Part shown: positions 365-34,641 of the stretch, piece by piece
Layout of the letters: every line of letters starts with the position of its first letter
Numbering within the stretch: the first letter of the stretch is position 1
DNA from: an uncultured Bacilli bacterium
GTDB taxonomy: Bacteria; Bacillota_I; Bacilli_A; Izemoplasmatales; UBA1188
Direction: 5' to 3'
NCBI GenBank assembly: GCA_905235635.1
Contig: CAJOMC010000003.1
Coordinates: forward strand, 79,018-115,312
Length of the DNA: 36,295 nucleotides
The notes under the pieces: model-generated
What the model saw: only the letters and a program-made list of their open reading frames with translations
What the model was told of the DNA's origin: nothing
Databases searched by the model: none
Made by a program: the position numbers and the translations under genes

Positions 365-3091
365 ATGAAGAAAAAACCCCTATTTATACTTTTATTAATA
401 GTAATACTATCTTTAGTACTATTACTTAATATAAGTCAAAAAAGTGTTAATGCAGAATCGACTAATGGTTTCCACGTTGAAGAAATCTTTTCTGATAAAT
501 TCAACAAAGAGTCATTAGATAAAAGTTGGACTCTAAATGACGCAACACTTGAGCTTAACTATAATGGACTTCATTGTATAAGCCCAGTAAGTTATGGCTC
601 TGGTCCTATTATTAACGCAGTAACCTTATCTGATAGAACTCAGATTAACTTTACTATCTATCCACAAACAGGTGAATCATCAACCAATATCTCATTTAAT
701 ATCGGTATGGAATCACCTCAATCACCTCAAAAAGAACCTGATGTCGATTGTAAAGTCCAATTTTGGAATGACCAATTAGTATTCACAACTTGGCAAAATA
801 ATCTTGCGGTTGACCATGATAAAGAAGCACAACACGTGCTTCGTGGTTTTAGTGGTTTATTCTCAGATCTTTTAAGAACCGATGTATCACTTTATATTGA
901 AAGAAAGAGTAATACTCTCACATCAATCTATGCAGAATACTATCGTGATGGTGAACTAGTTTATTCAAGTAAGAATCAAGCATTTGAATTATCAAACCCT
1001 AGATGTCCATATGGCTATTGTGGGTTCTTCTGGGACGTAGTTGAAATGGATCTTACTAATTTTGAAATATACAATAATGATTTACTTGTATTTGAAGATA
1101 ATTTTAGTGAAAACACTTTAACTTATCCTGCGACCGATTCATCACTTGGTAATTTTCATATTAATAACACTTTAAATGAATCTAACTGTTATATATCTAA
1201 GGTTCAATCAGTTAAGATGAACTCTCTAAATGAATCAATCATTAACTCAAATACCTTAATTAAACTAGATAATGTAAGTTATCCTTACGAGCTCAAATAT
1301 AGTGTTAAAGTTAATAGCTTAAAAGAGAATTCTTTCTTTGGCTTTGGCTTCGGTTTATCTAGTACTTCAAGCGCTCTTGATGAGAAGAATGCAATTGGTT
1401 TTATTAAAAATGATAATTTAACCGCAAATGTCGTAATCATAAAAGATGGTCAAATAGATAATAGTAATAGTTATCAAGTCGCCCTTACTAAACTAGGTAA
1501 TGGAAGATATCTAGATTATACTATTTCATTTGATTCTAAAAACAATGCTTATATTTCGTTTAATGGTCTAACCTATAAATTCTCTAATATTGATTTCTAT
1601 GGAAATACAGGCTTTGGCCTTGTATCGCTAAAACAAGGGGAAGAATCTTCAGATGTTGAACTAAGAGAATTCTCACTTAAAAGAAATGTATATAATAAAT
1701 ATTTATCTGAAGATGCATCAAATGATTTTAGAGGAACTAAAGTCCCTGATGAATCAGATCCGCTATATACTGAACCATACATAAATAATCAAAAATATTT
1801 CTTAGGTAGTGGTGTAACACTAGAAGAAGACTGGACTACAGGAGATGCAACACTCACATTTGATAATGTTGGTCCATATTCTGCGTTTGGCTACTGTAAG
1901 GAATATAGTGAATGGATCCTAGAATTTGATGTAGAACTATTTACACGTAAAAATGGTCATATGTTTGGTATTTCATTCGGACGTAAATCACTTGTTGATG
2001 TACTTCTTCAGGCAAGTACATCAAATAGTGCATATCTATTTAGATGTGATGGCTTAAATACCGCTCACATTACATATGGTACATCTTGTAAGTTTAGTGA
2101 TGGCTCAACTTATAAGATTAACCCAGTCAATATATTTGATGAAGATAACAATAAATATCATATGATGTTTATTGGCAAAAATAGGACTTTATATGTCTAC
2201 TATAAAGAAATAGATGCTCCAGATACTGATCTCGGTATCTTAAGAGCGAAGATAGAAAATGTTAATATTGATGGTTATGTATCAATAGTCGGAAACAATA
2301 ATATATCATTTGCTATCACAAACTATAAAATAGTTAACTTATCTGATGAATATAAAGAGGATACAGCTTTAACTTTAAGAGAATCATTCGCATCTAAAGA
2401 ATCATTATCTAATAAACTTATTTTAGATCCTATGAGTAAAATTCAAGATGAAAAACTCGTGCTAAACGATTCAACTTTAGAGCTTAAAGATGAAAATCTC
2501 TATGAAATCATTAGATTTACTACATATGAAATAGAAAATAGTTTCCAAGTAATGTTTTCAAATGATAAGAAAGTTATCTTTGATACTACTAAGAATCAAA
2601 TCATCATAAAAGAAGGTCAAACACAAATTGCATATGATGTAGAAGATGTAAATCTTAAGTATTTAAAAGGTAAACGTTTTGAAATCATTATTATGGGAGA
2701 TACTATTCAAATTGGATATAAAGGATATTATGATCCTCAAGATAAATTATCTTCTACCCTTATATCTCATACTCTTATAAGCCCACTTTCAAAGGATAGA
2801 GTTATTCTTTCATCAAACGGCAAAACTATTATTGATGATTTATATCTATTCTCACTAGATGGCTCAAAGAAGTGTGAAACACTAAATTATACTGATGATC
2901 CAAATAACGCAACAGTATGGCAGGTTAAGCCAGATTTTGATCCATCTAAAGTATATAAACATATAGAAGAAGGAACTGATAATAATAAAGATAATGGCTG
3001 TAAGGCATCAATTAGTGCTTTACCAGTTTTAGTATTATCAGTTGGTTTTATTCCTTTAATTATTCTAAAAAAGAAAAAGGAGGTGAAATAG
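365..3091 (+). CDS. Large secreted surface protein with ConA-like beta-sandwich repeats and C-terminal Gly-Cys/Lys4 anchor
   Basis: This is a 908-aa exported protein. Residues 1-30 form a signal peptide (MKKK, long Leu/Ile core, cleavage likely after VNA). The body looks like three or four related beta-rich domains. Each opens with a jelly-roll-like start such as FSDKFNKESLDKSW (near residue 43), VFEDNFSENTL (near 240) and LRESFASKESLSN (near 675), as in ConA/LamG or DUF1080-like glycan-binding folds. No catalytic motif was recognised. The C-terminus has Gly878-Cys879, a hydrophobic segment, then KKKKEVK, the same anchor plan seen in three other proteins here. The start follows AAAGGAGC. The stop lies one base before the next start, so translation is probably coupled. 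The role is inferred: cell-surface binding of a glycan for the neighbouring hydrolases. It could instead be an adhesin. Confidence 0.75.
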   Translation: MKKKPLFILLLIVILSLVLLLNISQKSVNAESTNGFHVEEIFSDKFNKESLDKSWTLNDATLELNYNGLHCISPVSYGSGPIINAVTLSDRTQINFTIYPQTGESSTNISFNIGMESPQSPQKEPDVDCKVQFWNDQLVFTTWQNNLAVDHDKEAQHVLRGFSGLFSDLLRTDVSLYIERKSNTLTSIYAEYYRDGELVYSSKNQAFELSNPRCPYGYCGFFWDVVEMDLTNFEIYNNDLLVFEDNFSENTLTYPATDSSLGNFHINNTLNESNCYISKVQSVKMNSLNESIINSNTLIKLDNVSYPYELKYSVKVNSLKENSFFGFGFGLSSTSSALDEKNAIGFIKNDNLTANVVIIKDGQIDNSNSYQVALTKLGNGRYLDYTISFDSKNNAYISFNGLTYKFSNIDFYGNTGFGLVSLKQGEESSDVELREFSLKRNVYNKYLSEDASNDFRGTKVPDESDPLYTEPYINNQKYFLGSGVTLEEDWTTGDATLTFDNVGPYSAFGYCKEYSEWILEFDVELFTRKNGHMFGISFGRKSLVDVLLQASTSNSAYLFRCDGLNTAHITYGTSCKFSDGSTYKINPVNIFDEDNNKYHMMFIGKNRTLYVYYKEIDAPDTDLGILRAKIENVNIDGYVSIVGNNNISFAITNYKIVNLSDEYKEDTALTLRESFASKESLSNKLILDPMSKIQDEKLVLNDSTLELKDENLYEIIRFTTYEIENSFQVMFSNDKKVIFDTTKNQIIIKEGQTQIAYDVEDVNLKYLKGKRFEIIIMGDTIQIGYKGYYDPQDKLSSTLISHTLISPLSKDRVILSSNGKTIIDDLYLFSLDGSKKCETLNYTDDPNNATVWQVKPDFDPSKVYKHIEEGTDNNKDNGCKASISALPVLVLSVGFIPLIILKKKKEVK

Positions 3092-3092
3092 T

Positions 3093-4394
3093 ATGAAGAA
3101 GATATTTACTATTATTAGTATGCTTATAACAACCCTAACACTTACATCTCTTACATCTTGTAAAAGAAATACAACCACTGGTATGTTTGATTTTGATGAT
3201 AAATACTTTATCGGTGTCCAGGAGCATTTCTATGAAATAAGAAATATGGAGCCAAGTGTAACCCATGAATTCGTAAGCGATATAGTAAGCGTTATGGGTA
3301 TGAAAGTATTTAGATTAAATGTCACCATGGATAATCTATTCTATGTTGATCAAAATGATACAGTGAAATTTAATCAAGCAACTAAGGAACAAATGCGTAT
3401 TATAGTAGATTCACTTGTTGAAGCTGGCATAGAACGTATTGTATACGCTAACGATTCATTTATTTATCCTTATGGCTATAAAGCTACTCATACTATTTGT
3501 GCACCAGATCCTTATACTGAACGCGATGCATATATTAGATGGCTTAAGGTTAATTCTATTGGTTATGGAATGATTGCAAAAGAATTCCCTGAGATTAAAT
3601 ATTTTGAACCAATCAATGAACCTGATGTTCCAAATAATGAAGTTCTCTGCAAAAACGGAATGATTTGGGGTTCTAAACAACCAGAATTTATGTTTACTGC
3701 CTCTGATGAAGCGCATATCTGCGCCGACCTTTGTTATTACATGAGACAAGAAATAAGAAAAGTTGATGAGAATAATAAGATGATGACTCCAGCTTTAACA
3801 TCTCTTAGGACTTGTCTTGATTATTTAGAATATATGTATGAAGCAATTGAGTCAGGATGTCATCCAACTGGCGATGATTTAAAATGTTCAGTTAACCCTG
3901 ATGACTATTTTGATTATATAGATTTACATCCATACTCAGCACTTAATGCTGTAGTAGACCCACTTTCACCAAAAGAAAATGGTGTTCAACTAATGACAGA
4001 GAATTATCTAGAAGGATGTAAGTTATTCTATGATATTTGCGTTAAACACGGAGATAAAGAAAAACCTCACTGGTATACAGAGGTAGGTTATTCTGATTAT
4101 GCCGATGTCACAAGAAGAGATATAATCGGTCGTGAAACCGCAAAACAACTTCAAATGGTAAAAGAAGAATTACCATTTGTAGAAACATTAATATTCTATA
4201 CATTAACTGACTTCTATGTATTTAATGTAGATATCAGTGAAAACCACTTTGGCTTATTCACAGCCATAGCGAATCCTGATGAATCACTTGAAATGAAACC
4301 TATAATGAAAGAAATCTATAAGTTCATGCATAATGGTTCTGAAGATTTTACTGCCTTTAATGCAGTATATGACAAATATAGGTTAGGTAAATAA
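3093..4394 (+). CDS. Lipoprotein glycoside hydrolase, clan GH-A (GH39/GH5-like TIM barrel)
   Basis: The protein has 433 aa. An N-terminal lipobox (LTSC, Cys23) predicts lipid attachment on the outer face of the membrane. The catalytic pair of a retaining clan GH-A glycosidase is visible. Asn175-Glu176-Pro177 in FEPINEPDVP is the acid/base, and Glu330 in HWYTEVGYSD is the predicted nucleophile at the end of strand 7. HPYSALN between them is the usual barrel motif before the nucleophile. The length fits a single-domain enzyme. The start at 3093 has an excellent GGAGGTGA site inside the end of the upstream gene, one base after its stop. A longer paralogue with the same NEP and TEFG motifs is encoded at 29494-32340. 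The exact GH family and substrate cannot be decided by eye. GH39 or a GH5 subfamily is most likely. Confidence 0.78.
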   Translation: MKKIFTIISMLITTLTLTSLTSCKRNTTTGMFDFDDKYFIGVQEHFYEIRNMEPSVTHEFVSDIVSVMGMKVFRLNVTMDNLFYVDQNDTVKFNQATKEQMRIIVDSLVEAGIERIVYANDSFIYPYGYKATHTICAPDPYTERDAYIRWLKVNSIGYGMIAKEFPEIKYFEPINEPDVPNNEVLCKNGMIWGSKQPEFMFTASDEAHICADLCYYMRQEIRKVDENNKMMTPALTSLRTCLDYLEYMYEAIESGCHPTGDDLKCSVNPDDYFDYIDLHPYSALNAVVDPLSPKENGVQLMTENYLEGCKLFYDICVKHGDKEKPHWYTEVGYSDYADVTRRDIIGRETAKQLQMVKEELPFVETLIFYTLTDFYVFNVDISENHFGLFTAIANPDESLEMKPIMKEIYKFMHNGSEDFTAFNAVYDKYRLGK

Positions 4395-4396
4395 GC

Positions 4397-7300
4397 ATGA
4401 AAAGAACGAAATTATTTATTATCTTATCTCTAATAATAAGCGCAGTAACTTTATCTCTTTTAACTATAAAACCAGTTGTAAAGGCTAAAGAAATTACTCA
4501 AGATTTAAAAGCTGGTGAATCTTTTGAGGAACCAGATAGAATTAGTGTAAGTGACTTAAAGAGTGGTGGCAAATCTATCGGTAATAAATTAGTTTTAGAT
4601 AAGCACAAAACTCTAACTTATGATAAAAGTGCTACTTACGGTTCTTTAGTTTTTGAATTTGTATCAAAGACAACCAACTGGTCAGAAGATGGCGATGGTG
4701 CACAGATTCACTTCTTTAGCACTTGGCAAATGAATGGTATGTTTTGGCTAAGACCTGACCACTTAAGAATTGCCTATAAGATTGAAGGAAAAGATACATC
4801 TAATTACATCGTTGGTGATCCAATCAGTAATGGAACACATACTATAGAAATTGGACGTCTCGCTATTATGAATGGTGATGAATATTCAGGTATTCAATAT
4901 TACTATATGAAAGTAGATGGAGAATTCTGGATAAGTTATAGATCTGATGATTACGAGAATACAATTTCTAATACTAAAGAAGAATATAACAGTAATTCAC
5001 TATTTTTTACCGGCACTGTAGGTAATGTAATGCTTGATAAAGACTGGAAAGGAAGCCATGTGACTTATATGGTTAATGGCACAGTTGTAGATGACTTTAT
5101 GTGCACTGATGATTATTTAACTAAACCAGCTACTGATCCAGTAGTAGAAGGCAAAACATTCGTTGGATGGTTCGATAATATGGGTAAAGAATGGGATTTC
5201 AAAAACAACCAAGTTACAGATAATTTAATTTTAAGAGCGGGATTTAAGGGAGAATACTCTGTTTCTGATGAAGTATATTTCAGCGATTCAAACTATACTC
5301 CTATCCTAAGATTCTTAGTCGCAAGTGACGTTCACATTGCGACAAACCCATCAGTCAGAGATTCAAATCTCGCATCAACCATAACATGGGCATATGAAAT
5401 CGCAGAATCTAATTCTAAATATAAGAAATTAGATGCGACACTTTTTGCGGGTGATATTTCTGATAATGGGGATGTAGGAAATCTTCAAACCTTTAATGAT
5501 ATTGCGAAACAATATCTAAGGAGTGATACACAATTTATTGTATCTATGGGTAACCACGACTTTAGAATGGCATCTGCGGATGATTCTATATCACAGTTCG
5601 CAAATATATTTGGACCTGTCGATAAACATTTAGTTATTAATGGATTCCACTTCATTACATTATCTCCAGATCTATCTGAAGGTGAACATTTCTCAGAATC
5701 TAAAGTAGAATGGTTAGATGAACAACTTCAAATTGCTCAAGAAGCAGATCCAACTAAACCAATATTCGTTATGCAACATGAACATATACAAGGAACTGTA
5801 TATGGTTCTGATGCATGGTATGTATCAGAACTTACTGATGTATTATGCAAATACCCACAAGTAGTAGACTTTTCAGGTCACTCACACTATCCACTTTCTG
5901 ACCCAAGAAGTATCTGGCAAGGCACATTTACAGCCCTTGGTACTGGTACTATGCATTACTATGAAGTGGGTATTAACGGATATAAAGTTACAGGTGTATT
6001 CCCTAACGATAGGCAAGGTGGATGGAGTATTTCTCCACACGCTAATAGTGCAGCATCTGAATTCCAAATTATTGAAATTGATGCGAATAATGCAATAAGG
6101 GTTACTGCATATGACCTAGCGTCTCGTACAGTAATCGCTCAATATTATATCAGAAATGCAATGGATGATGTTAAGTTCACATATTCACACGATGAAAGAG
6201 CTAAAGATAGCGATTTACCTGAATTTGAAGCTAACCAAAACCTAGAACTTACAAATGTTAAAACTAAAGTAACCCTCAAATTTAGGCAAGCTACTTGTGA
6301 TGATATCATCGAGAGCTATAGAGTAAAAGTATATCAAGGCACAGAACTCATTAAAACTGAATATATCTTATCTGATTATTTCTTCCATCCTACTCCAGAA
6401 TATATTGAATATACTATCGAAGGATTAAGAAGTGAAACAGAATATAGATTTGAAGTATATGCAGTAAATGTTTGGAATGTTGAATCAACATCTCACCTTA
6501 GTGGCACAATCACCACAGAATATGTGGATTATGGTGAAGAAGGATTTGGCGCATTTGACTTAATCAATGTCCTTGATATTGATATTCCTGATAATAATGG
6601 TGTACTCACAAATATTCCGAGTGAATCTAAGGTATATAACTATCCAGGTACATCACCATCATATACTGCAGTATTCCAATACTATCTAATTACTGGTGAT
6701 TTAAATAATAAAGATGAATTTAGAACTCAAGTTGGTACCAACTGGGAATATTACACTTGCTTCTGGATTCAAACTGGTAAATTTGATACTGTATTCTGTG
6801 GCTGGATTTATTCAACAAAACCAAGCGATAGAATTAAATATAATATTGAATCAAATAAAGTTTATAAGATTGAATATGGAACTATCTATGTATCTAGTGG
6901 TGAACATGAAGGTGAAGGCCTTGTTTACCTTAAGATTAATGATGAAGAAGTAAGAAGTTTCTATATTCCATTTAATGAATTTAAATCTACTAAATATAAT
7001 GTATCAATGCATATTTCAGATAACTACGCAATAGCTGATTTAAGCTTAGGAAGAACTGTCGAATATTATGTAGACGATCAAAAGATAGCTTCAAAATTTG
7101 CGATAAGTGGAATGACAACTACCCCTCCAACTGCCCCATCAAAACCAGGTCTTTACTTTGTGGGTTGGTATACTGACCCAGTAGGGGGATCAAGAGTAGA
7201 GTTTGATGAACCAATCTATTCAGATGATGAAGTAATTAAACTATATGCAAGATATACTGATACTACCTATGATGTTAATTTCTATCATGAAGATGGTACA

Positions 7301-10033
7301 TTAATTGAAACTCAGGCAGTAGGTAAAGATTGTACAGTTAAAAAGCCTGTTGATCCAGTTAAAACTGGTGAATATAAATATTCATTTATTAAATGGGTAA
7401 TTAAAGGCACAGATACTGAATTTGACTTTAATACTAGATTAAATGAAGCAATAGATTTAGAAGCCGTATTTGAAGAATATAGATATAAGATTGTCTACCT
7501 AGTAGATGGTCTTGAATATATAACTAAATATTATGTTGAGAGTAATCCAAGTGTAATTATTGGTGGTGAACCAAGCGTTCCAACTATTGCACATACTACT
7601 GGTTACTGGAAATATTCAGGAGATAGAACTAATAAAGATATCTACGCTAGTGCGAGATATGATGGAATAGCTACTACTCCAACAACTCAAATTAAATTAA
7701 ATAAATTTGAAGGTGCAACAGTTGATATCGCTGATGACCTCACAAGATTCTATTTAAGCTTTGCGGATACAGATGAGCAAGCTAACTGGATATTCACATA
7801 TCCTGTATCTGGTGGTCATGAAAGACAGAATATCACATTCAGTTGGACTGATTCTCAAAGAAACACATTATACTATGTATATTTCGCTGATAACTCTGAA
7901 TTTAAGAATGCATTCATCATTAAGACAGATTCAAAATCAGTTGATTATGTAGGTATTTTTACACCTGGAAAGACTTATTACTGGAAAGTAGTAGGTGTAT
8001 CAACTGGCGCAATATCTGAAGTTGATACATTCACTGTCCTTGATACTCCAGTTAGATGGATTAGTGCTGGTAGTGTATTTAACGTAAGAGATGCGGGTGG
8101 CTGGACCACAACTGACTCTAAGATGGTTAAATACGGCATGCTATACCGTGGTGGACAACTATCAATCGACCAATCTGGTGAAGTATCATATATGAATGAT
8201 TATTCATTTAAGGTATTCGATTATCTTGACATGAAAACTGAGATTGAATTAAGAGGTGACCACCCACATGATTTCGCTCAATTCAATGAATTAGCCCAAG
8301 AAATCAATATAGCTGCGGATAACTATATGGGTATCTTTAATATCAGTGACGCAAGAAAAACTCAATATAGAGAAGCATTTGAATTACTCGCTGATGAATC
8401 AAATTATCCATTCTATTTCCACTGTTCATGGGGAGCTGATAGAACTGGTACCTTTGCATTCCTTGTAAATGGTATGCTTGGTGTTCCATTCGAACAGTTA
8501 GTAGAAGACTATGAATTAACATCATTCTCAAATTCAGGTACAAGAACAAGACTTGGATGGAGTAATGGTGCATTCATGCAAATGTATAATAAATTCATGT
8601 CTGATTATAGAAAGAATGATACTGATACATTAAAGGATGCAGTAACTAACTATCTATTAACTTATATTGGAGTTTCACAAGAAACTATCAATTCTATTAG
8701 AGGTCTTTTACTAGAGGAGAAAACATCTACTCTTGTAACTCATACAGTTACATATATGGTAGATGGTGAAGTATATCAAAGAGCTTTAATCTTTGATGGT
8801 GGATTAATCCAAGAAATAGCTCCAAGATACCTTGAAAAAAATCTAGACTGCTACATGCTTAATGGTGAAAGATTTGACCCTAATACTAAGGTCACATCTG
8901 ATTTAGTGCTTGAAGCTAAATTTGTTGAAACTTTATATGAAGATTATGATGTAGTAACTGTAAGAGATTTAGGTCTTGGTGAATCATATGTTCCAGTCGC
9001 AAGCCTTCATAGTTTTGAAGGAACCTCATCTACTGGCTCAAGAATATTTGAATTCGATTATCTAATTAAAGCCGATGATAAAACATTTAATGATGGTGTA
9101 CATGTAGAAATAGGACTTAATACTTGGGACTGTAAAGCCCATATTTGGTTCTGCGACCTAACATCTATCCATGTATTTATTGATGGTATATCTGCAGATG
9201 GAACTATGCATCCACTTGCGACATATAATCGTAACTTAAAATATGATGAGACATATAGAGTATCTGTCGGTGTAATTATCCCTATTGATGGTGAAAACGC
9301 TGGTAAGAAATTATTCATCATAAAATTAAATGATGAAGTATTAAGCAGTGTAATATGTAACGCAGATATCTCAAATAATTATAATATCGGTATTGCGGGC
9401 ACAGAAGGCGTCTTAAAGAGTACCGATAATAAAAAGACAGTTAAATTTATATCTCAGACTGGTAAGACTTTAGAGACAAAGGAAGTAAGAAGAGGAGAAC
9501 TCGTATCTACTGACCTTAATCCAACATATGAAGGAAAAGTATTCTTAGGTTGGTTTGATGAACTAGGTAACCTTTGGAATTTTGAATCAAATAAAGTATT
9601 AAAGGATATGTCACTATTCGCTAAATTTGGCGATAGAACTATAGATGCTGTAATACTTGATGAAAATAATATTGAGGTTAGCCATGGCTATAAAGTTAAG
9701 ATAGGTCTAATGGTTAAGGATATTCCTTTACCACTTGTACCATCAGATGCCCTTGAGTTTGATGGATGGTACAATGGTAAAACTAAGCTTAATCCAACTG
9801 ACGTCATTACTGAAGATATGGATTTAATCTGTGTATTCAAGGTAGTTGAAAAAGAAGACCCAGTAGATCCTGTTGATCCTATTGATCCTCTTGATCCTAT
9901 TGACCCAGTTGATCCAACTGAACCAAGTGGATGTAAATCATTCGCAAACTCAAGCTTATATATAATTGTTTCACTATTATTTATAAGCCTAATTATACTC
10001 AAGAAAAAGAAACAAGAGAAAGAGAGGATATAA
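4397..10033 (+). CDS. Giant surface protein with calcineurin-like metallophosphatase and tyrosine-phosphatase-like domains
   Basis: The protein has 1878 aa. The signal peptide ends near VKA (residue 30). Domain order follows. An ISVSDL jelly-roll-like module spans about 48-220 and an InlB/Flg_new-type repeat (FVGWFDN) about 225-282. The metallophosphatase runs 304-600 with Asp311-Val-His313, Gly-Asp353, GNHD (Asn386, His387), His461 and GHSH (His495, His497), a complete metal site. A fibronectin III-like domain spans 620-711. A second module (about 715-890) and two more FVGWYT-type repeats follow. Next come another FN3-like domain and a Y_phosphatase3 domain. The latter has NVRDAGG and LYRGGQ, then HCSWGADRTG with Cys1343 and Arg1349 in CX5R. 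A third module, two more repeats, an Asp-Pro linker and the anchor (Gly1845-Cys1846, membrane segment, KKKK) complete it. Both phosphatases appear active. Their substrate (phosphorylated glycan, inositol phosphate or nucleotide) is unknown. Confidence 0.85.
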   Translation: MKRTKLFIILSLIISAVTLSLLTIKPVVKAKEITQDLKAGESFEEPDRISVSDLKSGGKSIGNKLVLDKHKTLTYDKSATYGSLVFEFVSKTTNWSEDGDGAQIHFFSTWQMNGMFWLRPDHLRIAYKIEGKDTSNYIVGDPISNGTHTIEIGRLAIMNGDEYSGIQYYYMKVDGEFWISYRSDDYENTISNTKEEYNSNSLFFTGTVGNVMLDKDWKGSHVTYMVNGTVVDDFMCTDDYLTKPATDPVVEGKTFVGWFDNMGKEWDFKNNQVTDNLILRAGFKGEYSVSDEVYFSDSNYTPILRFLVASDVHIATNPSVRDSNLASTITWAYEIAESNSKYKKLDATLFAGDISDNGDVGNLQTFNDIAKQYLRSDTQFIVSMGNHDFRMASADDSISQFANIFGPVDKHLVINGFHFITLSPDLSEGEHFSESKVEWLDEQLQIAQEADPTKPIFVMQHEHIQGTVYGSDAWYVSELTDVLCKYPQVVDFSGHSHYPLSDPRSIWQGTFTALGTGTMHYYEVGINGYKVTGVFPNDRQGGWSISPHANSAASEFQIIEIDANNAIRVTAYDLASRTVIAQYYIRNAMDDVKFTYSHDERAKDSDLPEFEANQNLELTNVKTKVTLKFRQATCDDIIESYRVKVYQGTELIKTEYILSDYFFHPTPEYIEYTIEGLRSETEYRFEVYAVNVWNVESTSHLSGTITTEYVDYGEEGFGAFDLINVLDIDIPDNNGVLTNIPSESKVYNYPGTSPSYTAVFQYYLITGDLNNKDEFRTQVGTNWEYYTCFWIQTGKFDTVFCGWIYSTKPSDRIKYNIESNKVYKIEYGTIYVSSGEHEGEGLVYLKINDEEVRSFYIPFNEFKSTKYNVSMHISDNYAIADLSLGRTVEYYVDDQKIASKFAISGMTTTPPTAPSKPGLYFVGWYTDPVGGSRVEFDEPIYSDDEVIKLYARYTDTTYDVNFYHEDGTLIETQAVGKDCTVKKPVDPVKTGEYKYSFIKWVIKGTDTEFDFNTRLNEAIDLEAVFEEYRYKIVYLVDGLEYITKYYVESNPSVIIGGEPSVPTIAHTTGYWKYSGDRTNKDIYASARYDGIATTPTTQIKLNKFEGATVDIADDLTRFYLSFADTDEQANWIFTYPVSGGHERQNITFSWTDSQRNTLYYVYFADNSEFKNAFIIKTDSKSVDYVGIFTPGKTYYWKVVGVSTGAISEVDTFTVLDTPVRWISAGSVFNVRDAGGWTTTDSKMVKYGMLYRGGQLSIDQSGEVSYMNDYSFKVFDYLDMKTEIELRGDHPHDFAQFNELAQEINIAADNYMGIFNISDARKTQYREAFELLADESNYPFYFHCSWGADRTGTFAFLVNGMLGVPFEQLVEDYELTSFSNSGTRTRLGWSNGAFMQMYNKFMSDYRKNDTDTLKDAVTNYLLTYIGVSQETINSIRGLLLEEKTSTLVTHTVTYMVDGEVYQRALIFDGGLIQEIAPRYLEKNLDCYMLNGERFDPNTKVTSDLVLEAKFVETLYEDYDVVTVRDLGLGESYVPVASLHSFEGTSSTGSRIFEFDYLIKADDKTFNDGVHVEIGLNTWDCKAHIWFCDLTSIHVFIDGISADGTMHPLATYNRNLKYDETYRVSVGVIIPIDGENAGKKLFIIKLNDEVLSSVICNADISNNYNIGIAGTEGVLKSTDNKKTVKFISQTGKTLETKEVRRGELVSTDLNPTYEGKVFLGWFDELGNLWNFESNKVLKDMSLFAKFGDRTIDAVILDENNIEVSHGYKVKIGLMVKDIPLPLVPSDALEFDGWYNGKTKLNPTDVITEDMDLICVFKVVEKEDPVDPVDPIDPLDPIDPVDPTEPSGCKSFANSSLYIIVSLLFISLIILKKKKQEKERI
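9858..9930 (+). repeat. Asp-Pro-X repeat coding for a stiff linker before the membrane anchor
   Basis: About eight DPV/DPI/DPL triplets, encoded by GATCC-type repeats, sit just before the Gly-Cys anchor of the 1878-aa protein. Such Pro-rich linkers commonly span the cell wall in Gram-positive surface proteins. This supports the view that the protein stays attached by its C-terminus and projects outward. Confidence 0.8.
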
Positions 10034-12520: not shown

Positions 12521-15500
12521 ATGAAAAGGATTAAACATTTAATTTTTGGAATATTGATGTGTTTAGTTTCTGTAGTGGCTATGTCATTTTTACTTAAAGC
12601 ACCACTAAAAGAAGCAAACGCTCTTGTTTCAATTCCTGAAGGTCAAACTTTAGATGAAAATGTAGATACAATTTCTGTAAGAGATTTGACCCTAGATGGA
12701 GTAACTAATCAGTCTATGATTGCACTCAATGCTGATAGTGGTAAAAGTTATAGTTTTTCTTATAGCGATGGCAACAGCAACCATAACTTAGTACTAAGAT
12801 TTAAGTACGATGTTGTTGATATGTCTGACACTTCAGATAAAAATACTCTTGAAATATATTTCAGAGCTGATGACAAAGTATGGGGTAGCGCTGATGCTAA
12901 TAAGAATGAAATTCTATTTAGAGGTGATGGTGTATATTTCAAAAGATATACCGATTCTTTTAACTATAAAAAAATGGATGCTCTCACTGTTGGCACACAT
13001 GATATTGAGTTTGGTAGAATAGCATTATTAGATGGTGATGGTAACCCAACTGGAAATTACTATGTATACTACATTCTTGATGGCGTTAAACAATATGATA
13101 GTATTACTCCATTAAATTTGGAAAAACTACAAAATAATATGTATATTAGATATGGTAAGACTAATACTAAAAATAGAATGTACGATGCAGATTTATCTTA
13201 TGAAACACCACAATATGTTAGTGTTAGTGATCTTACTAGTGGAGGCAATCCGGTAGGAAATACTGTTCCAGCAAAAGATGTTTCGTATCCATATAATGCT
13301 GCTGAAAGACCTGCTAATCACTCGACAGTATTTGTTGCTAAATTAAACTATCAAGAAGGAGGAGAAGGTGACATTTACATTGTAAATAGTTCCGATAATA
13401 ACTGGGTAAAATATGGTGGATGGGTAAGTATAAGGAGTAATAGGATATATATTGGAATAAATAACTCAGATGGTACACATGATCATAATGGTGAATATTC
13501 TTATCCAAGTGAACTATTAGATGGCTCTATACATAATATTGAATTTGGTAGACTTGCAGTAATGAAAGATGGTGTTTTCCAAAATAGATACCATTTATAC
13601 TTTAAACTAGACGGAGTTATTATTTACGCAATTGATCAAAAAATAGCTTCAGACATTATTGAGGCACAAAGAATACATTTAACTGGTAATCAAAAAATGG
13701 ATTACTCAGATGCCTATACATATGAAGATGCTAAAGAAATTAGTGTTCGTGAATTAAAAGATGGCAATGGAAACTATGTTGGCAACACATTGCTAATTGA
13801 TGGCCAAAAGAATTTATTCTACGATAATGATGACCATGCAGAAAACTACTCGATAGTATTTAAATATAAATATGAATGTCTTGAAAACAAACAAAATCAA
13901 TTCCATTTGACACGTTCAGATGACAAATGGAAGAGTGCAAGTTCGTTTATAATCAATAATGACGATGGAACTAAAGTTAACTTAGGTAAGAGTACTTTAG
14001 AAAATAACGACGCTGGTTTCCACAACATTAGTTATACTATGGTTGTTGGTAAAACATACGATGTAGAGTATGGACGTATTGCACTTATGTATGAAGGTTC
14101 ATTTACTGGTAAGTATCTTGTTTATTTAAAGATTGATAATACTATTGTCAAATATGATATCTTTGCAATTCCACAAAATGTTGTTAAAGGAAACTTAGTA
14201 TTTATCACTGCAGATGGTCAAAATAGAATAAATGACGTATATCAAGAGGAAGAGGCTAAAGAAATTAGTGTAAGCGATCTTAAAGATGGCAATACACTAG
14301 TTGGCAACTCACTACAAATTAATGATCAAAAGAATTTAAGCTATGATAATACTGATCATACAGAAAACTATTCTGTAGTATTTAAATTCAGATATGAAGC
14401 TGTTGAGTTAAAGAACAATCAAATCCATTTATCTAACAGCAATAATAAGTGGGATCAAGCAAGTTCATTCATATTAAATAATAATGGTGGAACTCAAATT
14501 AACTTTGGTAAGAGTTCAAAAACTGCGTCTAATGGACTTGGCTGGTATAATGTAACAATACCTCAAGCATTTGTAGCTGGGACAGTATATGACATTGAAT
14601 TCGGTAGAATTGCTCTTATGGAAGGCACTGAATTTAGTGGTAAATATCATTTATATCTAAAGATTAATAATGTAATCGTTAAAGAAGCATATTTTGCAAT
14701 GCCAGAAGCTATTGCTCAAGGAAATGTAGTATTTATTACTGCTGATGGCCATAATAATATGTATGATATCAATGCTCATTACGAAAATGAAGCACATACA
14801 TTGCAACATCATGAAGCTGTACCTCATACTTGTACAGAAGATGGTACAGTTGAATACTGGTCTTGTTCAAGATGTGGTAAGAATTTTGGTGATGCAAATG
14901 CTGCAAATGAACTTACATCTCTCGTAGATCCAATGGGTCATGCTTTAACTCATCATGAAGCAGTTGATGCTACATGTACAGATGCTGGTTCTAAGGAATA
15001 CTGGTCTTGTTCAGCTTGCAATAAGAACTTTAAAGAAGAAGCATGCGAAAATGAAATAAGCAACTTAGAAGAATATTTGCCAGTAGCTGTTTTAGGACAC
15101 GATTATCAATGGGTAATTGATAAAGAAGCTTCTTATACTGAAACTGGTTTAAGACATAAAGAATGTACTAGATGTCATGATAAACAAGAAGAAGGAACAG
15201 TAATTCCTATGGTTACTTGTGAACATGATCTTGAACCACTTGAAGGTACTGCTGCAACTTGTACAACAGCCGGCTCAAAATCATACTATGAATGCAGTAT
15301 ATGTCATAGATATTATGAAGATGATAAAGGACAAGTAGAAATTACTGATTTAGAAGCATATCTACCTATTGCTGCACTCGGACATTCATTTGGTGAATGG
15401 GTAGAAGAAGTTCCTGCAACTTGTACAGAAGATGGTGTTAAAGCACATAAAGATTGTTCAGTATGTCATAAACATTTTGATGCTGATGGAAAGGAAATCG

Positions 15501-17908
15501 AAGATTTAGCTATTTTAGCACCAGGACATCAATTTGGCGAACTTATTGCTAAGGTTGATCCAACTTGTACAGAAGCTGGTGTTAAAGAACATAAAGATTG
15601 TTCAGCATGTCATAAACACTTTGATGCTGATGGAAAAGAAATCGAAGATTTAGCTATTGCTGCTCTTGGACATGAACTCACTCATCATGCTGCTGTTGCT
15701 CCAACTCTTGAAGAAGCTGGTAACTTAGAATATTGGTCTTGTTCAAGATGCCATAAGAACTTCAGTGATGAAGAAGGCAAACATGAACTTGCAAGTACTG
15801 TATTAACTCTTGAACAACCTAAAGTTTTAGGTGTAAGTGACTTAAAGAAGAGTGGTCAATCAATTGGTAATGTATTTGTTGCAACAGGTCATACTGATTT
15901 AACATTTGATAATGCTGATCATAAAGATAACTATTCATTAGTATTTAGATTTAAATATCAATCTTATGAATCAGCTCAAAACCAATTCCACTTATCTTGC
16001 AGCGCAAATAAATGGGATGGCGCAAGCTCAATCATCTTAAATAATGATAAGGGTACAAAAGTTCATCTTGGAAAGAGCACTAGCGAAGCATCTGCTCAAG
16101 GATGGCATGACATTAAATTCAATATGGCATTAGGAACTATCTATAATGTTGAATTTGGTAGATTAGCTGTAATGAATGGTGATGAATTTACTGGTCAATA
16201 TTATGTATTCTTAATGATTGATAATCAGATCATAAAAGATATGATTACAGGAATTCCTACTGCAGTAGTTCAAGGCGATGTTGCATTCTTAACTGCAGAT
16301 GGAAAGAATATGATCTATGATACTAATGTTACTATGGAAGAAGCTAAAGTTATTAGCATTAGTGATTTAATGAAAAATAATGCTTCTGTTGGTAATATTA
16401 TTAATATTAAAGAAGCTATAGAATATACATTTGATAATTCTGATCATAAGGATAATTATTCATTATTACTCAAGTTTAAATATGAATCACTGGATTCAGC
16501 TCAAAACCAATTCCACTTAACTAATAGCGCAAATAAATGGAATCCAGCAAGCTCATTCATTATCAATAATGATGGTGGAAAGAAAGTGCATATTGGTAAG
16601 AGTACTAGTGAAGCTGCATCTGGACTCGGCTGGTATGATATTGAATATACTATGCCAAAGGATCTAACATATGAAGTTGAACTTGGTAGATTAGCTGTTT
16701 TAGTAGATGGCGAACCTAGTGGTAATTACTTTGTATACTTAAGAGTAAACGGAACAATAGTGAAGGGTTATGAAATGGGAATTCCACAAGAAGTTCTTGA
16801 AGGAAATACTGCATTCATTACTGCAGACGGAAAGAATACTCTATATGATATAGCTTATGTACCATGTGGAGATACACATACATTAGTACATCATGAAGCT
16901 GTTGCTGCAACATGTACTCAAGATGGAACAATTGAATATTGGGCATGCTCTAACTGTGGTAAGTTATTTGCTGATGAAGCAGGTACTCAAGAAATCACAG
17001 ATATTAAGGCGCCTAAACATCATACATTAGAAGCAGTTGCTGCAGTTGCACCAACTTGTACAGAAGATGGTACTATTGCTCACTTCCATTGTTCAGTATG
17101 TTCTAAGAACTTCAGTGATGAAGCTGGACAACACGAACTTGCATCTATAGTTGATCCTAAACATCATACATTAGAAGCAGTTTCTGCAGTTGCACCAACT
17201 TGCACAGAAGATGGTACTGTTGCTCACTTCCATTGCTCAGTATGTTCTAAGAACTTCAGTGATGAAGCAGGTGAACACGAACTTGTAAGCTTAGTTGATC
17301 CTAAACATCATACATTAGAAGCAGTTGCTGCAGTTGCACCAACATGTACAGAAGCTGGCAATATCGCTCACTTCGCATGTAGCGTATGTGGTAAGACATT
17401 CAAGGATCAAGCTGGTACAGAAGAATTAGCTGATGTAGCACTCGCTCCTCAACATACTCTCGTTCATCGTGAAGCTGTAGCTCCTACATGCACAGAAGAT
17501 GGTAATATTGAATATTGGCATTGCTCTGAATGTGGTAAGAACTTCAGTGATGCTGAAGGCAAGAATCAAATCACTAATGTGGTTGAACCTGCTCATCATA
17601 CACTTGTTCATCACGATAGAGTAGAAGCAACTTGTACAGCTGAAGGAAATATCGAATACTGGGAATGCTCAGAATGCCATAAGAAGTTCAGTGACGCTCA
17701 AGGCACAACTGAAGTAGCTGATGTAAGAATTCCACAAAAAGCACATTCATATAATAATGGTGTATGTGACAACTGTGGCGCTCAAGATCCAGATTATAAA
17801 GCTCCAAGAAAGTTTGGATGTAAATCATCTGTATCTGCTACTGCAGTATTCTTCTTACTCGGTGTTGCTTGTCTAGTATACAAGAAAAAGAAAGAAGAAC
17901 TACTCTAA
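12521..17908 (+). CDS. Giant surface protein: six ISVxDL modules, 13 Cys-rich tandem repeats, Gly-Cys/Lys4 anchor
   Basis: The protein has 1795 aa. The signal peptide ends at ANA (about residue 34). Four beta-rich modules of about 175 aa start near residues 49, 232, 406 and 580. Each opens with ISVxDL...VGN and has a GRIALM or GRLAVM strand in the second half. An array of seven Cys-rich repeats (about 759-1097) follows. Two further modules (from about 1102 and 1277) and a second array of six repeats plus a cut-down copy (about 1453-1757) come next. The C-terminus has Gly1766-Cys1767, a hydrophobic stretch and KKKKEELL. No catalytic site was found. The modules look like ConA/LamG-type glycan binders and the repeats like small zinc- or disulfide-stabilised stalk units (inferred). 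The ATG follows AAAAGGAG. It is the last gene before the terminator at 17950. Confidence 0.75.
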   Translation: MKRIKHLIFGILMCLVSVVAMSFLLKAPLKEANALVSIPEGQTLDENVDTISVRDLTLDGVTNQSMIALNADSGKSYSFSYSDGNSNHNLVLRFKYDVVDMSDTSDKNTLEIYFRADDKVWGSADANKNEILFRGDGVYFKRYTDSFNYKKMDALTVGTHDIEFGRIALLDGDGNPTGNYYVYYILDGVKQYDSITPLNLEKLQNNMYIRYGKTNTKNRMYDADLSYETPQYVSVSDLTSGGNPVGNTVPAKDVSYPYNAAERPANHSTVFVAKLNYQEGGEGDIYIVNSSDNNWVKYGGWVSIRSNRIYIGINNSDGTHDHNGEYSYPSELLDGSIHNIEFGRLAVMKDGVFQNRYHLYFKLDGVIIYAIDQKIASDIIEAQRIHLTGNQKMDYSDAYTYEDAKEISVRELKDGNGNYVGNTLLIDGQKNLFYDNDDHAENYSIVFKYKYECLENKQNQFHLTRSDDKWKSASSFIINNDDGTKVNLGKSTLENNDAGFHNISYTMVVGKTYDVEYGRIALMYEGSFTGKYLVYLKIDNTIVKYDIFAIPQNVVKGNLVFITADGQNRINDVYQEEEAKEISVSDLKDGNTLVGNSLQINDQKNLSYDNTDHTENYSVVFKFRYEAVELKNNQIHLSNSNNKWDQASSFILNNNGGTQINFGKSSKTASNGLGWYNVTIPQAFVAGTVYDIEFGRIALMEGTEFSGKYHLYLKINNVIVKEAYFAMPEAIAQGNVVFITADGHNNMYDINAHYENEAHTLQHHEAVPHTCTEDGTVEYWSCSRCGKNFGDANAANELTSLVDPMGHALTHHEAVDATCTDAGSKEYWSCSACNKNFKEEACENEISNLEEYLPVAVLGHDYQWVIDKEASYTETGLRHKECTRCHDKQEEGTVIPMVTCEHDLEPLEGTAATCTTAGSKSYYECSICHRYYEDDKGQVEITDLEAYLPIAALGHSFGEWVEEVPATCTEDGVKAHKDCSVCHKHFDADGKEIEDLAILAPGHQFGELIAKVDPTCTEAGVKEHKDCSACHKHFDADGKEIEDLAIAALGHELTHHAAVAPTLEEAGNLEYWSCSRCHKNFSDEEGKHELASTVLTLEQPKVLGVSDLKKSGQSIGNVFVATGHTDLTFDNADHKDNYSLVFRFKYQSYESAQNQFHLSCSANKWDGASSIILNNDKGTKVHLGKSTSEASAQGWHDIKFNMALGTIYNVEFGRLAVMNGDEFTGQYYVFLMIDNQIIKDMITGIPTAVVQGDVAFLTADGKNMIYDTNVTMEEAKVISISDLMKNNASVGNIINIKEAIEYTFDNSDHKDNYSLLLKFKYESLDSAQNQFHLTNSANKWNPASSFIINNDGGKKVHIGKSTSEAASGLGWYDIEYTMPKDLTYEVELGRLAVLVDGEPSGNYFVYLRVNGTIVKGYEMGIPQEVLEGNTAFITADGKNTLYDIAYVPCGDTHTLVHHEAVAATCTQDGTIEYWACSNCGKLFADEAGTQEITDIKAPKHHTLEAVAAVAPTCTEDGTIAHFHCSVCSKNFSDEAGQHELASIVDPKHHTLEAVSAVAPTCTEDGTVAHFHCSVCSKNFSDEAGEHELVSLVDPKHHTLEAVAAVAPTCTEAGNIAHFACSVCGKTFKDQAGTEELADVALAPQHTLVHREAVAPTCTEDGNIEYWHCSECGKNFSDAEGKNQITNVVEPAHHTLVHHDRVEATCTAEGNIEYWECSECHKKFSDAQGTTEVADVRIPQKAHSYNNGVCDNCGAQDPDYKAPRKFGCKSSVSATAVFFLLGVACLVYKKKKEELL
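14796..15810 (+). repeat. First array of Cys-rich tandem repeats (seven units, 42-53 aa)
   Basis: Each unit starts with His, has a TCT[ED]xG motif, then an aromatic pair (YW, YY or HK), CSxC, and K-N/H-F. The third unit lacks the TCT Cys (ASYTETG) and the seventh replaces TCT with TLE. Units are diverged at DNA level, unlike the second array. Three regularly spaced cysteines and flanking histidines suggest metal binding or disulfides. Confidence 0.85.
16878..17790 (+). repeat. Second array of Cys-rich repeats with near-identical 144-bp units
   Basis: Six full 48-aa units plus a short final copy (GVCDNCGAQ). The units beginning near 17018, 17162 and 17306 are spaced exactly 144 bp apart and share long identical stretches, such as CATCATACATTAGAAGCAGT. 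This points to recent tandem duplication or gene conversion. Unit number is likely to vary between strains. Confidence 0.85.
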
Positions 17909-26620: not shown

Positions 26621-28104
26621 ATATAAGATTAAATGAAAGAATGCTTCTAAATAAGAATAGACTATTAAACTATGATAATACATATAAAGATGTATATAAA
26701 AAAGACATGTCTATGTCTTGGCCAGGTGATTTCATCGGCAGATATTCGCTCGCCCTTTCATCACTTTATAGCGCTCTTGATAAAGTGAGTGATAAAGAAG
26801 AAGTCTTAAATGAGCTAAAAAAAGTAGTTAGTGAAAGAAGAAAATATGTGAATAAGCACTTCTTTATGGGTCCACTATTTAATGATTCACTTATCAATGA
26901 GCAACAGCTTTCTGGTAACTCTTGGTATATAAGATCGCTTGTATCCTATTATAGAATTACAGGTGATAGCGAGATACTTGATGAGATTAAATGTATTATA
27001 GAAGAATTACTTTTAAAAGTTTGGCCACATTATTCTCACTATCCACTAAAAGATAAAAGAGAGATAGGTGATGTAAGCGGACATACATCTTTAACCCCTA
27101 TTGATGGATTTATATTATCTAGTGATATAGGGTGTGCATTTATACTTCTTGACGCCTATACAGATGTATATGAACTAACTAAAGATTCAAGATTAAAAGA
27201 AGCTATTGAATATATCATAGATATTTTTATGAAAATAGATTATGTGTCTCTAATGTGCCAAACACATGCGACTATTACATGCGCAAGATCTATCACAAGA
27301 TTCTATAAATTAACTAATGATACTAAATATTTGGATTACGCAAGAAAGATATTTAGTGATTATGAGAATTATGGAATGACTCTAGATTATGAAAATATTA
27401 ACTGGTTTAATAAGATTGATTCTTGGACAGAACCATGTTGCGTTATAGATTCATTTATCTTAGCACATGATTTATATCTAATAACTAAAGATAATAAATA
27501 TCTTAAATTATTTGGCCGTATTTCAACAAATGGTCCAAGAATATTTGAAAGAGATAATGGTGGCGCAGGATGCGCATCTATCCTTTATACAAAAGATTCT
27601 ATTCTTAAGTGCCATATGTATGAGGCATGGTTCTGTTGCTCAATGAGGTTTGGTGAAGGACTTAAATGTTTATCTTTATCTCGCTTAATAGAACTCTCTA
27701 AAGATAAATATTTAGCACTATACCCAGATAAATATGATAAGGATGGCATATCTTTGGATATAGATTATTACTGTAATAAATCTATTAAAGTTAAATCAAA
27801 TAAAGATATAGATTTACTTATCTATATCCCAGATGGATTTATAGTTAAATCATCTAATACTGAATATGAAATTAAAGATAATCTAATTAATATTAAAGTA
27901 TCAAAAGATAATGAAGTATTAATTGAATGTGAATTAAGTATCAATAAGGAAAAAGATATCTATTTTATGGGTGATATGTTGCTCACAAGAAAGGACATTC
28001 ACACTGATCCAATAGTTTTAATAGATGGCATGAAATATTCATATGTATTATCATCATGTGAATATAAAAAAGAAGAACTTGAAAAAATATCTCAATTTTT
28101 ATAG
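26617..28104 (+). CDS. GH127-like (DUF1680-type) glycosidase with Zn-thiolate site, cytoplasmic
   Basis: The protein has 495 aa and no signal peptide. The fold looks like an (alpha/alpha)6 barrel followed by beta domains. The key observation is Glu272-Pro-Cys274 in WTEPCC and Cys340-Cys341 in WFCCSM. This reproduces the Glu-x-Cys and Cys-Cys pair that holds zinc and supplies the cysteine nucleophile in GH127 beta-L-arabinofuranosidases (family knowledge: Glu338, Cys340, Cys417, Cys418 in HypBA1). HATITCARSITRFYKLT is typical barrel sequence. Overall similarity beyond these sites looks low and the protein is shorter than HypBA1, so it may be a separate family with the same chemistry. AAAGGAG precedes the ATG, which overlaps the previous TGA. 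Confidence 0.6.
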   Translation: MNIRLNERMLLNKNRLLNYDNTYKDVYKKDMSMSWPGDFIGRYSLALSSLYSALDKVSDKEEVLNELKKVVSERRKYVNKHFFMGPLFNDSLINEQQLSGNSWYIRSLVSYYRITGDSEILDEIKCIIEELLLKVWPHYSHYPLKDKREIGDVSGHTSLTPIDGFILSSDIGCAFILLDAYTDVYELTKDSRLKEAIEYIIDIFMKIDYVSLMCQTHATITCARSITRFYKLTNDTKYLDYARKIFSDYENYGMTLDYENINWFNKIDSWTEPCCVIDSFILAHDLYLITKDNKYLKLFGRISTNGPRIFERDNGGAGCASILYTKDSILKCHMYEAWFCCSMRFGEGLKCLSLSRLIELSKDKYLALYPDKYDKDGISLDIDYYCNKSIKVKSNKDIDLLIYIPDGFIVKSSNTEYEIKDNLINIKVSKDNEVLIECELSINKEKDIYFMGDMLLTRKDIHTDPIVLIDGMKYSYVLSSCEYKKEELEKISQFL

Positions 28105-28114
28105 GTGGCAAGTT

Positions 28115-29451: not shown

Positions 29452-29493
29452 AAATAATAATATATTATTTTAACATTAGAAAGGGGAGTGAAA

Positions 29494-32358: not shown

Positions 32359-34641
32359 ATGAAGAAACATACTTTTAGAATAATTATTACCCTATTAATT
32401 ATAGCTTTAGGATTAGTCATACTACCTTACTTAAGTAGGGTAAATGCTGCATCAAATCAGTTAAATGCAGGAGCTAAAATTAGCCTTCAAAGTTTTAATA
32501 AAAACCTTGATAATATCAACATTAAAATTGAGTTTACTACAAATGTAAACTTAGATGGTGCAAATAATGCGCTTCTTGTGGGCATTATATCAAATGATGA
32601 AACTTTACTTACTGATCAAAGATTTATTGGTTCTAGTACCTTAAGTGGCTTATATGATGAAGATGATACCGTACTTGTATTAGAAAATGCCCCATCAACA
32701 ATTGGAACTAAAGTTAAAAATGGTGGTTATTATACATATACATTTGAAACAAAAGACTTTACTGTAGTTGATAGTACTACTAATGTTGGATACTTTGTGG
32801 TAATAGCCCAAAAAGGAACTCTAATAAATGTTCAGCTATCAGTAACTGAAGTTAAATATTCTGTGAGATTTGGAGAAAAAGCACCAGTGCTTTATTCATA
32901 CAATGAATTGATTGAAGCACCCGAAACTACATACTTTATGGAAATAAATGGTCACTATCCCCTAAATTCATGGGTTGGTGATGATTCAAGTGAATTTATA
33001 GAGGGAAGCACTTACACAACCAAAGATATAGTTTATAGAGCTAATAAATTACCGCTTCAAGCCCACAACTGGGAACATATAGATGAAGATTACGCAATAA
33101 GAGGACATAATGGCGTTTTAGCCCACGATATTTGTTCTATATGCGGCGCAATAAGAATAGATAATAACTCACAAAGTCTTTCTAACACAGAAGATTTAAA
33201 TACAACTCATATTTGTGAATATGATGTTTCATTCGATTGGAGTAATGCATTAAATCCTGGAGATAAACCTCATATTATCTATATTTGTCAAGATGAGCTT
33301 TGTGGATATTCTTATAAAGTTAATTCAAGTGATATAGTAATGACTATAAAAGATGGTTCTTTAATTGAACCTACATTTGATAAAGAAGGCTCTGTGATAT
33401 ATGTCGCAAGCACAACTTATGAGAATAAAATAGCGAGTGACGAGAAGTCTTATATACTTCCAAAATCAACACATAAGTTAACCTTCATTGAGGCAGTTCT
33501 ACCAACTTGTACAACTGATGGAAACGTTCAATATTTCCATTGTAATGAATGTGGTAAGAACTTTAGTGATATTGAAGCTAAATATGAATTATTAAGTATT
33601 ATAGATCCCCGTCATCATTCATTAACTCATATTGATAAGGTAGATTCAACATGTACTATAAATGGTATAATCGAACATTATCATTGTTCAGTATGTAATA
33701 AGAATTTCGGTGATGAAAAGGGAATTAATGAGATTAATGATATAAATATTTGTGCTCACCACAATTTAACTCATATTGATAAAGTAGATGAAACTTGTAC
33801 AACTGATGGAAGAATTGAATGTTATCATTGTACTATATGTGATAAGAACTATAGCGATTCTTTAGGGCAAATAGAAATATTCGATGTAAGAATTCCTAAA
33901 CATCATAATTTAATATATCATGATGGAGTAGAAGCATCTTGTACTACAGGTGGAAATATTGACTACTATGAATGTTTAATGTGTGGTAAATGCTTTAGTG
34001 ATATTAGCGCTCAAAATGAGCTTGATACAACTAGTATTAAGCCTGAACACTTATTAACCCATCATGATGCAAAAGAAGCTACATGTATCGAAGATGGCAA
34101 TATAGAATATTATGAGTGTAGTAAATGCCATAAACTATTTAGTGATAGTGAAGGAACTAAAGTTTTATCTAGTGTAATACTAAAAGGTGGACATATATTT
34201 ACCCATTATAATAAAGTAGATGCAACATGCACAACTGAAGGGAATATAGAATATTATCACTGTAGTGTATGTGGAAAGAATTTTGATAAAGAATCAAATA
34301 AATTAGATAGTGTTATAATACCCGCTACACATAGCCTTATAAAATATATTGCTACAGATGCTACATGTGAAACAGATGGAAATATAGAATATTATCATTG
34401 TAGTGTATGTGGTAAAAACTTTAGAGATCAGGGTGGTAAACTCGAAGTAGAAGATATAGTAATACATGCGATAGGGCACCAATATGGAACTGACGGAAGA
34501 TGTACAGTATGCGGTAAAAATAAGCCAAATCAAGGCGGTTCTGGTTGTTTCTCAGTTATTTCTTCCTTCTCATTACTTCCTATATTTGCTGCAAGCTTTA
34601 TTATAATAGTGAAGAAGAAAAAAGAAAATAATGTAGAATAA
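32359..34641 (+). CDS. Surface protein with seven Cys-rich repeats and Gly-Cys/Lys4 anchor
   Basis: The protein has 760 aa. The signal peptide ends at VNA (residue 30). A beta-rich N-terminal domain (about 35-175) shows no recognised family. An InlB-like piece and one degenerate CSICG unit follow. Seven full Cys repeats (about 372-705) and a short last copy (GRCTVCGKN) precede Gly729-Cys730, a hydrophobic segment and KKKKENNVE. The repeats share TCT[TE]xG, Y[HE]C..C and K.F.D with the 1795-aa protein. The ISVxDL modules are absent here; they are in the adjacent lipoprotein instead. GAGGAG precedes the ATG. It is likely a wall-spanning stalk or adhesin paired with the upstream glycosidase. No enzymatic motif was seen. 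Confidence 0.75.
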   Translation: MKKHTFRIIITLLIIALGLVILPYLSRVNAASNQLNAGAKISLQSFNKNLDNINIKIEFTTNVNLDGANNALLVGIISNDETLLTDQRFIGSSTLSGLYDEDDTVLVLENAPSTIGTKVKNGGYYTYTFETKDFTVVDSTTNVGYFVVIAQKGTLINVQLSVTEVKYSVRFGEKAPVLYSYNELIEAPETTYFMEINGHYPLNSWVGDDSSEFIEGSTYTTKDIVYRANKLPLQAHNWEHIDEDYAIRGHNGVLAHDICSICGAIRIDNNSQSLSNTEDLNTTHICEYDVSFDWSNALNPGDKPHIIYICQDELCGYSYKVNSSDIVMTIKDGSLIEPTFDKEGSVIYVASTTYENKIASDEKSYILPKSTHKLTFIEAVLPTCTTDGNVQYFHCNECGKNFSDIEAKYELLSIIDPRHHSLTHIDKVDSTCTINGIIEHYHCSVCNKNFGDEKGINEINDINICAHHNLTHIDKVDETCTTDGRIECYHCTICDKNYSDSLGQIEIFDVRIPKHHNLIYHDGVEASCTTGGNIDYYECLMCGKCFSDISAQNELDTTSIKPEHLLTHHDAKEATCIEDGNIEYYECSKCHKLFSDSEGTKVLSSVILKGGHIFTHYNKVDATCTTEGNIEYYHCSVCGKNFDKESNKLDSVIIPATHSLIKYIATDATCETDGNIEYYHCSVCGKNFRDQGGKLEVEDIVIHAIGHQYGTDGRCTVCGKNKPNQGGSGCFSVISSFSLLPIFAASFIIIVKKKKENNVE
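33472..34530 (+). repeat. Cys-rich tandem repeats in the 760-aa protein (seven units plus truncated copy)
   Basis: Units of 46-49 aa start with H-x-L and contain one Cys in TCT and two in CxxC. One unit (SCTTGG...CLMCGKC) has an extra Cys. DNA identity between units is lower than in the 17018-17450 array, so this set is older or is not being homogenised. Confidence 0.85.

Follow-up and report, generated by a model that had tools for sequence, protein, structure and literature searches.

The window analysed here, a 36,295-nucleotide stretch from the 1.37-Mb genome (44 contigs) of an uncultured Bacilli bacterium, encodes four surface proteins on its plus strand that share one type of C-terminus, a Gly-Cys dipeptide followed by a hydrophobic stretch of about 20 residues and the sequence KKKK (hereafter the GC tag). 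The 908-aa protein (365..3091), for which a Pfam scan returned no recognised domain, starts with an SPase I-type signal peptide without a lipobox Cys (365..454, ..SVNA/ES) and ends with tag 1 (GCKASISALPVLVLSVGFIPLIILKKKKEVK, Cys879; 2996..3091, of which the first codon is that of the Gly and the last is the stop). The 1878-aa protein (4397..10033; signal peptide 4397..4486, ..VVKA/KE) combines calcineurin-like phosphoesterase, fn3, tyrosine-phosphatase-like and List_Bact repeat segments, with tag 2 last (GCKSFANSSLYIIVSLLFISLIILKKKKQEKERI, Cys1846; 9929..10033). Both remaining proteins are repeat proteins: the 1795-aa protein (12521..17908; signal peptide 12521..12622, ..EANA/LV) carries repeated modules, RYYR-CCHC repeats and tag 3 (GCKSSVSATAVFFLLGVACLVYKKKKEELL, Cys1767; 17816..17908), and the 760-aa protein (32359..34641; signal peptide 32359..32448, ..RVNA/AS) carries RYYR-CCHC repeats and tag 4 (GCFSVISSFSLLPIFAASFIIIVKKKKENNVE, Cys730; 34543..34641). 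The RYYR-CCHC repeats (PF23674) of these two proteins contain CxxC pairs. All signal peptides were assigned by eye.

Three other exported proteins of 433, 421 and 950 aa (3093-4394, 28043-29308 and 29488-32340) have a lipobox-like N-terminus and no GC tag, and the tagged proteins of the window have no lipobox, so that the two look like mutually exclusive anchors in the window. The region 10271-35331 also encodes GH38, GH78-like rhamnosidase, ROK kinase, SIS, GH127-like and GDSL lipase proteins as well as glycosyl-hydrolase-like lipoproteins, and reads as a glycan-utilisation locus.

Translation and counting reproduced the shared C-terminus of the original prediction, including the protein lengths, the four Cys positions and the spacing, KKKK beginning at C+23 in the 908-aa and 1878-aa proteins, C+21 in the 1795-aa protein and C+22 in the 760-aa protein; the translated window tails also contained no LPXTG, as had been stated. 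Among window ORFs of at least 100 aa, only these four had KKKK within the last 14 residues. Cys made up 0.7-4.2% of the residues in the four proteins and the GC dipeptide occurred once in each, always at the tail position, for which the chance in all four is about 2e-9, a rough figure based on independence and on a floor rate set at 1/1000. Leave-one-out profiles recovered the held-out tails from among 2080 decoy tails at E=2e-10, 3e-7, 2e-4 and 0.026, and the better match in the weakest case (E=0.026) was another GC-tail protein. A search of the genome with the four-tail profile found a fifth tag protein of 476 aa (E=1.2e-5) on contig C18, ending in GCKSNISSAVLPLVIVLSSTAIIISFKKKKRL and encoded next to a sugar-binding lipoprotein gene. 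Thus, all four proteins originally named were real, but the count for the genome is five and the tag is not confined to them. An SPase I-type N-terminal signal was seen by eye in all five.

Tails of related genomes ended in two to four Lys/Arg (RK, KRK, RRK and others) and kept the Gly-Cys. The ending of exactly KKKK, proposed earlier as part of the signal, therefore held in the source genome and failed in the relatives: Gly-Cys is the fixed part of the tag and KKKK is particular to the source genome. Conservation of the Cys, on which the prediction had been staked, extended to tags of other genera and families, in a comparison of tags rather than of traced orthologues. A membrane tail of 36 residues is a short target in which profile searches overlook weak members; because many relatives' tails escaped the profiles A1 and A2, a further tail profile (A5) was built.

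A dedicated protease or transferase had been expected elsewhere in the genome, and a neighbouring pair of genes outside the window answers to this expectation. Two genes of the source genome encode PF02517 (CPBP) proteins; one of these genes, located on contig C8, has a 26-bp overlap with an Lgt-homologue ORF (G000:C8:291-1043, minus strand) that we call LgtB, a label for the short, non-canonical Lgt type; the pair and the tags lie on different contigs. The other CPBP gene (L002) had neither an Lgt nor a tag neighbour and was set aside. The CPBP beside LgtB (PF02517, E=1.2e-16), in which the EExxxR motif is present as EELIFR, is by its sequence a CAAX/Rce1-type intramembrane protease of predicted catalytic activity. 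LgtB is one of three Lgt homologues in the source genome, together with a canonical-scoring one and one on contig C13, and it scored 99.8 bits against PF01790 (cut-off 24.9). Relative to E. coli Lgt, LgtB has other residues in place of the His of HGG and the Asn of GRxGNF (FxGG, GRxGC); it retains a neighbouring Arg and has three invariant Cys (GRIGC..AGCC). AlphaFold2 models of both proteins had pLDDT of about 92; the best PDB match of the LgtB model was E. coli Lgt (5azb), and the CPBP model matched SpdC (6u0o) and Rce1 (4cad).

The pair recurred well beyond the source genome. Among the LgtB loci that we fetched from the taxonomic order of the source genome, a CPBP gene overlapped LgtB or lay within about 110 bp of it in 11 genomes, comprising the source genome with four congeners (family f1) and six genomes of family f2. 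The two genes were adjacent in 20+ named genomes, and since Lgt-first, CPBP-first and opposite-strand arrangements all occurred, the adjacency is more than the inheritance of one operon. Across 80 named loci, nearly all Bacilli and several Clostridia had the pair and most Clostridia were without it. The source LgtB was 52, 48 and 50% identical to those of loci L093, L094 and L095 (CPBP, 42, 40 and 35%), compared with only 35-37% (CPBP, 22-25%) for the congeners, and this sequence relationship suggests that the two genes move together. A GC-tag gene directly preceded LgtB in three separate loci (L153, L057 and L218), with the order tag gene, LgtB, CPBP in L153, and lay near LgtB in L094, L097 and L130. 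Four congeners (G002, G003, G005 and G006) carried the pair with no tag detected, and in their CPBPs (L045, L046, L047 and L049) ED..FQ or ED..FV replaces EExxxR. The family f3 loci that we read had LgtB without a CPBP neighbour. At L058, L059, L061, L062 and L201 the f3 LgtB gene comes after two ABC-transporter-type membrane genes, and at several of these loci a TGC-tag protein is encoded about 5 kb from LgtB, again with no CPBP neighbour.

Co-occurrence was determined in a class sample of 198 genomes of at least 90% completeness, which included some of the genomes that had supplied A5 tails; tails were accepted at E<=1e-3 when they covered the Gly-Cys columns, and LgtB at E<=1e-32. Cys-covering tails were found in 22 genomes of eight families, and LgtB was present in 22/22 of these versus 51/198 overall (p=2e-15), or, by genus, in 16/16 tag genera versus 35/129 overall (p=4e-11), the p-values being guides only because they treat related genomes as independent. 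The same held within two families of the source genome's order: all six tag genomes of f2 carried LgtB, which was found in 7/27 genomes, and all nine of f3, where LgtB was found in 12/27. Pair-type CPBPs (E<1e-50) occurred in 18 genomes, all with LgtB and 16 of them immediately adjacent to it.

The search for a co-occurring membrane protease, suggested with the original prediction, thus led to the CPBP adjoining LgtB. Among 50 named LgtB genomes, tags were detected in 23/27 with an adjacent CPBP versus 5/23 without (p=7e-6); since L094, L097 and L153 were among the source genomes of A5, the test was recomputed without these genomes and gave p=2.5e-5. When only records with Clostridia-or-related titles were counted, tags were present in 6/6 with an adjacent CPBP versus 4/18 without. 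In the class sample, the partner CPBP was not detected in 9 of the 22 tag genomes (families f3, f7 and f18), all of which had LgtB, so that in these genomes the protease is absent, of another kind or divergent. Reading the LgtB neighbourhoods of the f3, f7 and f18 genomes revealed no other obvious protease. A second LspA in the role of the protease where no CPBP was detected was rejected, as a separate single LspA was present in 25 of 26 genomes, one had none found, and no genome had two. One Clostridia MAG (G257, the genome of L158) gave 18 GC-tag matches, many of them in ORFs of about 390-430 aa, with several tag ORFs adjacent to one another on contigs C23 and C74.

Lgt attaches diacylglycerol to a Cys that lies beside a membrane helix, on the outer side of the membrane; LspA cleaves on the N-terminal side of its lipidated Cys, and Rce1 on the C-terminal side of its own. 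Because of this known chemistry, the simplest model is one in which Sec would export the tagged protein by means of a cleavable N-terminal signal and the C-terminal helix would hold the protein temporarily in the membrane, with the Cys facing outwards and the Lys cluster lying in the cytoplasm. LgtB would then add diacylglycerol to the tag Cys, and the CPBP protease would cut off the helix. We consider it probable that the GC tag is such a C-terminal sorting signal, diacylglycerylated by LgtB and relieved of its helix by the CPBP, so that the surface protein would be left anchored by a lipid on its C-terminal Cys; we infer the lipidation, the cleavage, their order and the topology from the genes and tails described above. 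The same logic was proposed for MYXO-CTERM in the mBio 2025 myxosortase paper, in which the lipidating enzyme is unknown and Lgt is the leading candidate (PMC11980579).

The original prediction had compared the invariant Cys before the helix with Cys-containing signals of the MYXO-CTERM kind, and the recurrence of the three-part tail (a motif containing the invariant Cys, a helix and a basic cluster, in that order) together with the enzymes supports this comparison. MYXO-CTERM/MrtX of Myxococcota shares the three-part tail and a CPBP-family protease, and its Cys is likewise proposed to be lipidated (PMC11980579). It differs from the system described here, in which the motif is mostly Gly-Cys plus small residues with a K-rich end in the source genome, the hosts are Bacilli and Clostridia, and the CPBP gene has an Lgt paralogue beside it, whereas the lipidating enzyme of MYXO-CTERM is unknown (PMC11980579). 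No CTERM model of NCBIfam release 20.0 scored above its cut-off for the window tails; the best models, all below cut-off, were Loki-CTERM for these and GG_III-CTERM for the fifth tail. The nearest named relatives of the CPBPs scanned included MrtS, Mrt_core and MrtJ, with up to about 40 bits against cut-offs of 75-325, and none passed an Mrt equivalog or Mrt_core cut-off; the best myxosortase-type model for the source CPBP was MrtS (E=1e-5, 25.7 bits, cut-off 130). Synerg-CTERM/MrtS and JDVT-CTERM/MrtJ also join Cys-type tails to a CPBP protease, but the tails described here match neither model above cut-off, and we know of no Lgt linked to either system.

Canonical lipoprotein processing by Lgt and LspA offers a further parallel, in that LgtB is a PF01790 protein with a modelled Lgt fold, but the target Cys here would precede a C-terminal helix of opposite orientation, and the partner of LgtB is a CPBP rather than the LspA that is separately present. 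In CaaX/Rce1 processing, as proposed here, a CPBP enzyme cuts C-terminally of a Cys that carries a lipid, in keeping with the match to 4cad; the target of the GC-tag system would differ in being extracytoplasmic, in carrying diacylglycerol instead of a prenyl group and in the release of a helix. By analogy, we propose that the tag and the pair work like MYXO-CTERM/myxosortase and CaaX/Rce1, and we do not file them as a member of the former because tails and CPBPs stay below the NCBIfam CTERM and Mrt cut-offs. No description of the Lgt-CPBP pair was found in our literature searches, which covered few subscription journals.

Several other readings of these data were weighed. The tail might be a type I membrane anchor and nothing else, with helix and Lys acting as the generic stop-transfer signal that they resemble, the Cys incidental or in a disulfide, and no processing at all. 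This is in keeping with the tag genomes that have no detected partner protease, but we think it unlikely, given that GC occurs once per protein and solely at this point of the tail, that at least eight families retain it, that tag presence tracks LgtB and CPBP adjacency, and that the three further tail matches of the class sample, which did not cover the Cys, all fell in genomes without LgtB. The better tracking of the tag by LgtB than by the CPBP (22/22 versus 13/22 genomes) would fit lipidation by LgtB without routine cleavage, the helix and the lipid both being kept and the CPBP serving another role. In Bacilli, however, LgtB usually has the CPBP next to it, CPBP adjacency predicts tags, and Cys signals are cleavage sites for both Rce1 and MrtX (PMC11980579), which together make retention of the helix a rather poor prospect.

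It is also conceivable that LgtB and the CPBP act on ordinary N-terminal lipoproteins, with an indirect link to the tag: LgtB is an Lgt homologue, and LnsB, a CPBP relative, is needed for lipoprotein N-acylation in S. aureus (PMC7387801). LnsB lacks the conserved catalytic motifs (PMC7387801) that the source CPBP retains, and the source CPBP had no match to the LnsB model, so that N-acylation of the LnsB type was rejected; among the CPBPs scanned, one relative alone gave a weak match (18.7 bits, cut-off 240). The separate LspA, the further Lgt found besides LgtB in 20 of the 22 genomes examined, almost all of them with tags, and the tag genes directly beside LgtB in three loci also render a role confined to N-terminal lipoproteins very unlikely. 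Finally, the three-part architecture is that of LPXTG and PEP-CTERM tails, LPXTG tails share with the GC tag their association with surface display, and the LPXTG_anchor model weakly matched a few relatives' tails, as might be expected if a sortase-like or exosortase-like enzyme cut at GC and transferred the protein to the wall or to a lipid in one step. With a sortase gene in 0/17 genomes tested, no LPXTG in the tails and no CTERM cut-off reached by those of the window, LPXTG/sortase was rejected and one-step transfer of this kind appears extremely improbable.

Returning to C-terminal lipidation by LgtB followed by cleavage by the CPBP, we regard it as somewhat likely that a dedicated Lgt paralogue and a CPBP protease produce C-terminal lipoproteins in many uncultured Bacilli and in some Clostridia, in a complete mirror image of Lgt/LspA. 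MYXO-CTERM has a known protease but, in its published description, no known lipidating enzyme, Lgt being only the leading candidate (PMC11980579); the Lgt paralogue described here is genetically tied to the tag and to a CPBP, and the missing lipidating step thus becomes directly testable. If true, C-terminal lipidation by LgtB would point to the kind of enzyme that performs this step in Cys-type C-terminal signals, and would account for the display of large surface proteins by Bacilli without sortases. It would likewise call for a new tail model, the window tails having scored below every cut-off in NCBIfam release 20.0, and for more care before an Lgt homologue is annotated by default as a prolipoprotein transferase.

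LgtB was the only Lgt found in G102 and G118, so that ordinary lipoproteins may be among its substrates in these genomes as well. The Lgt homologue on contig C13 of the source genome (L043:6622-7575) is a 317-aa protein with a polar C-terminal extension (..MKEKGIITEDEFIKKKTQLLKK), its gene comes after a der/engA-like GTPase gene, and a similar Lgt homologue is encoded in the congener G004 (L048:5748-6506).
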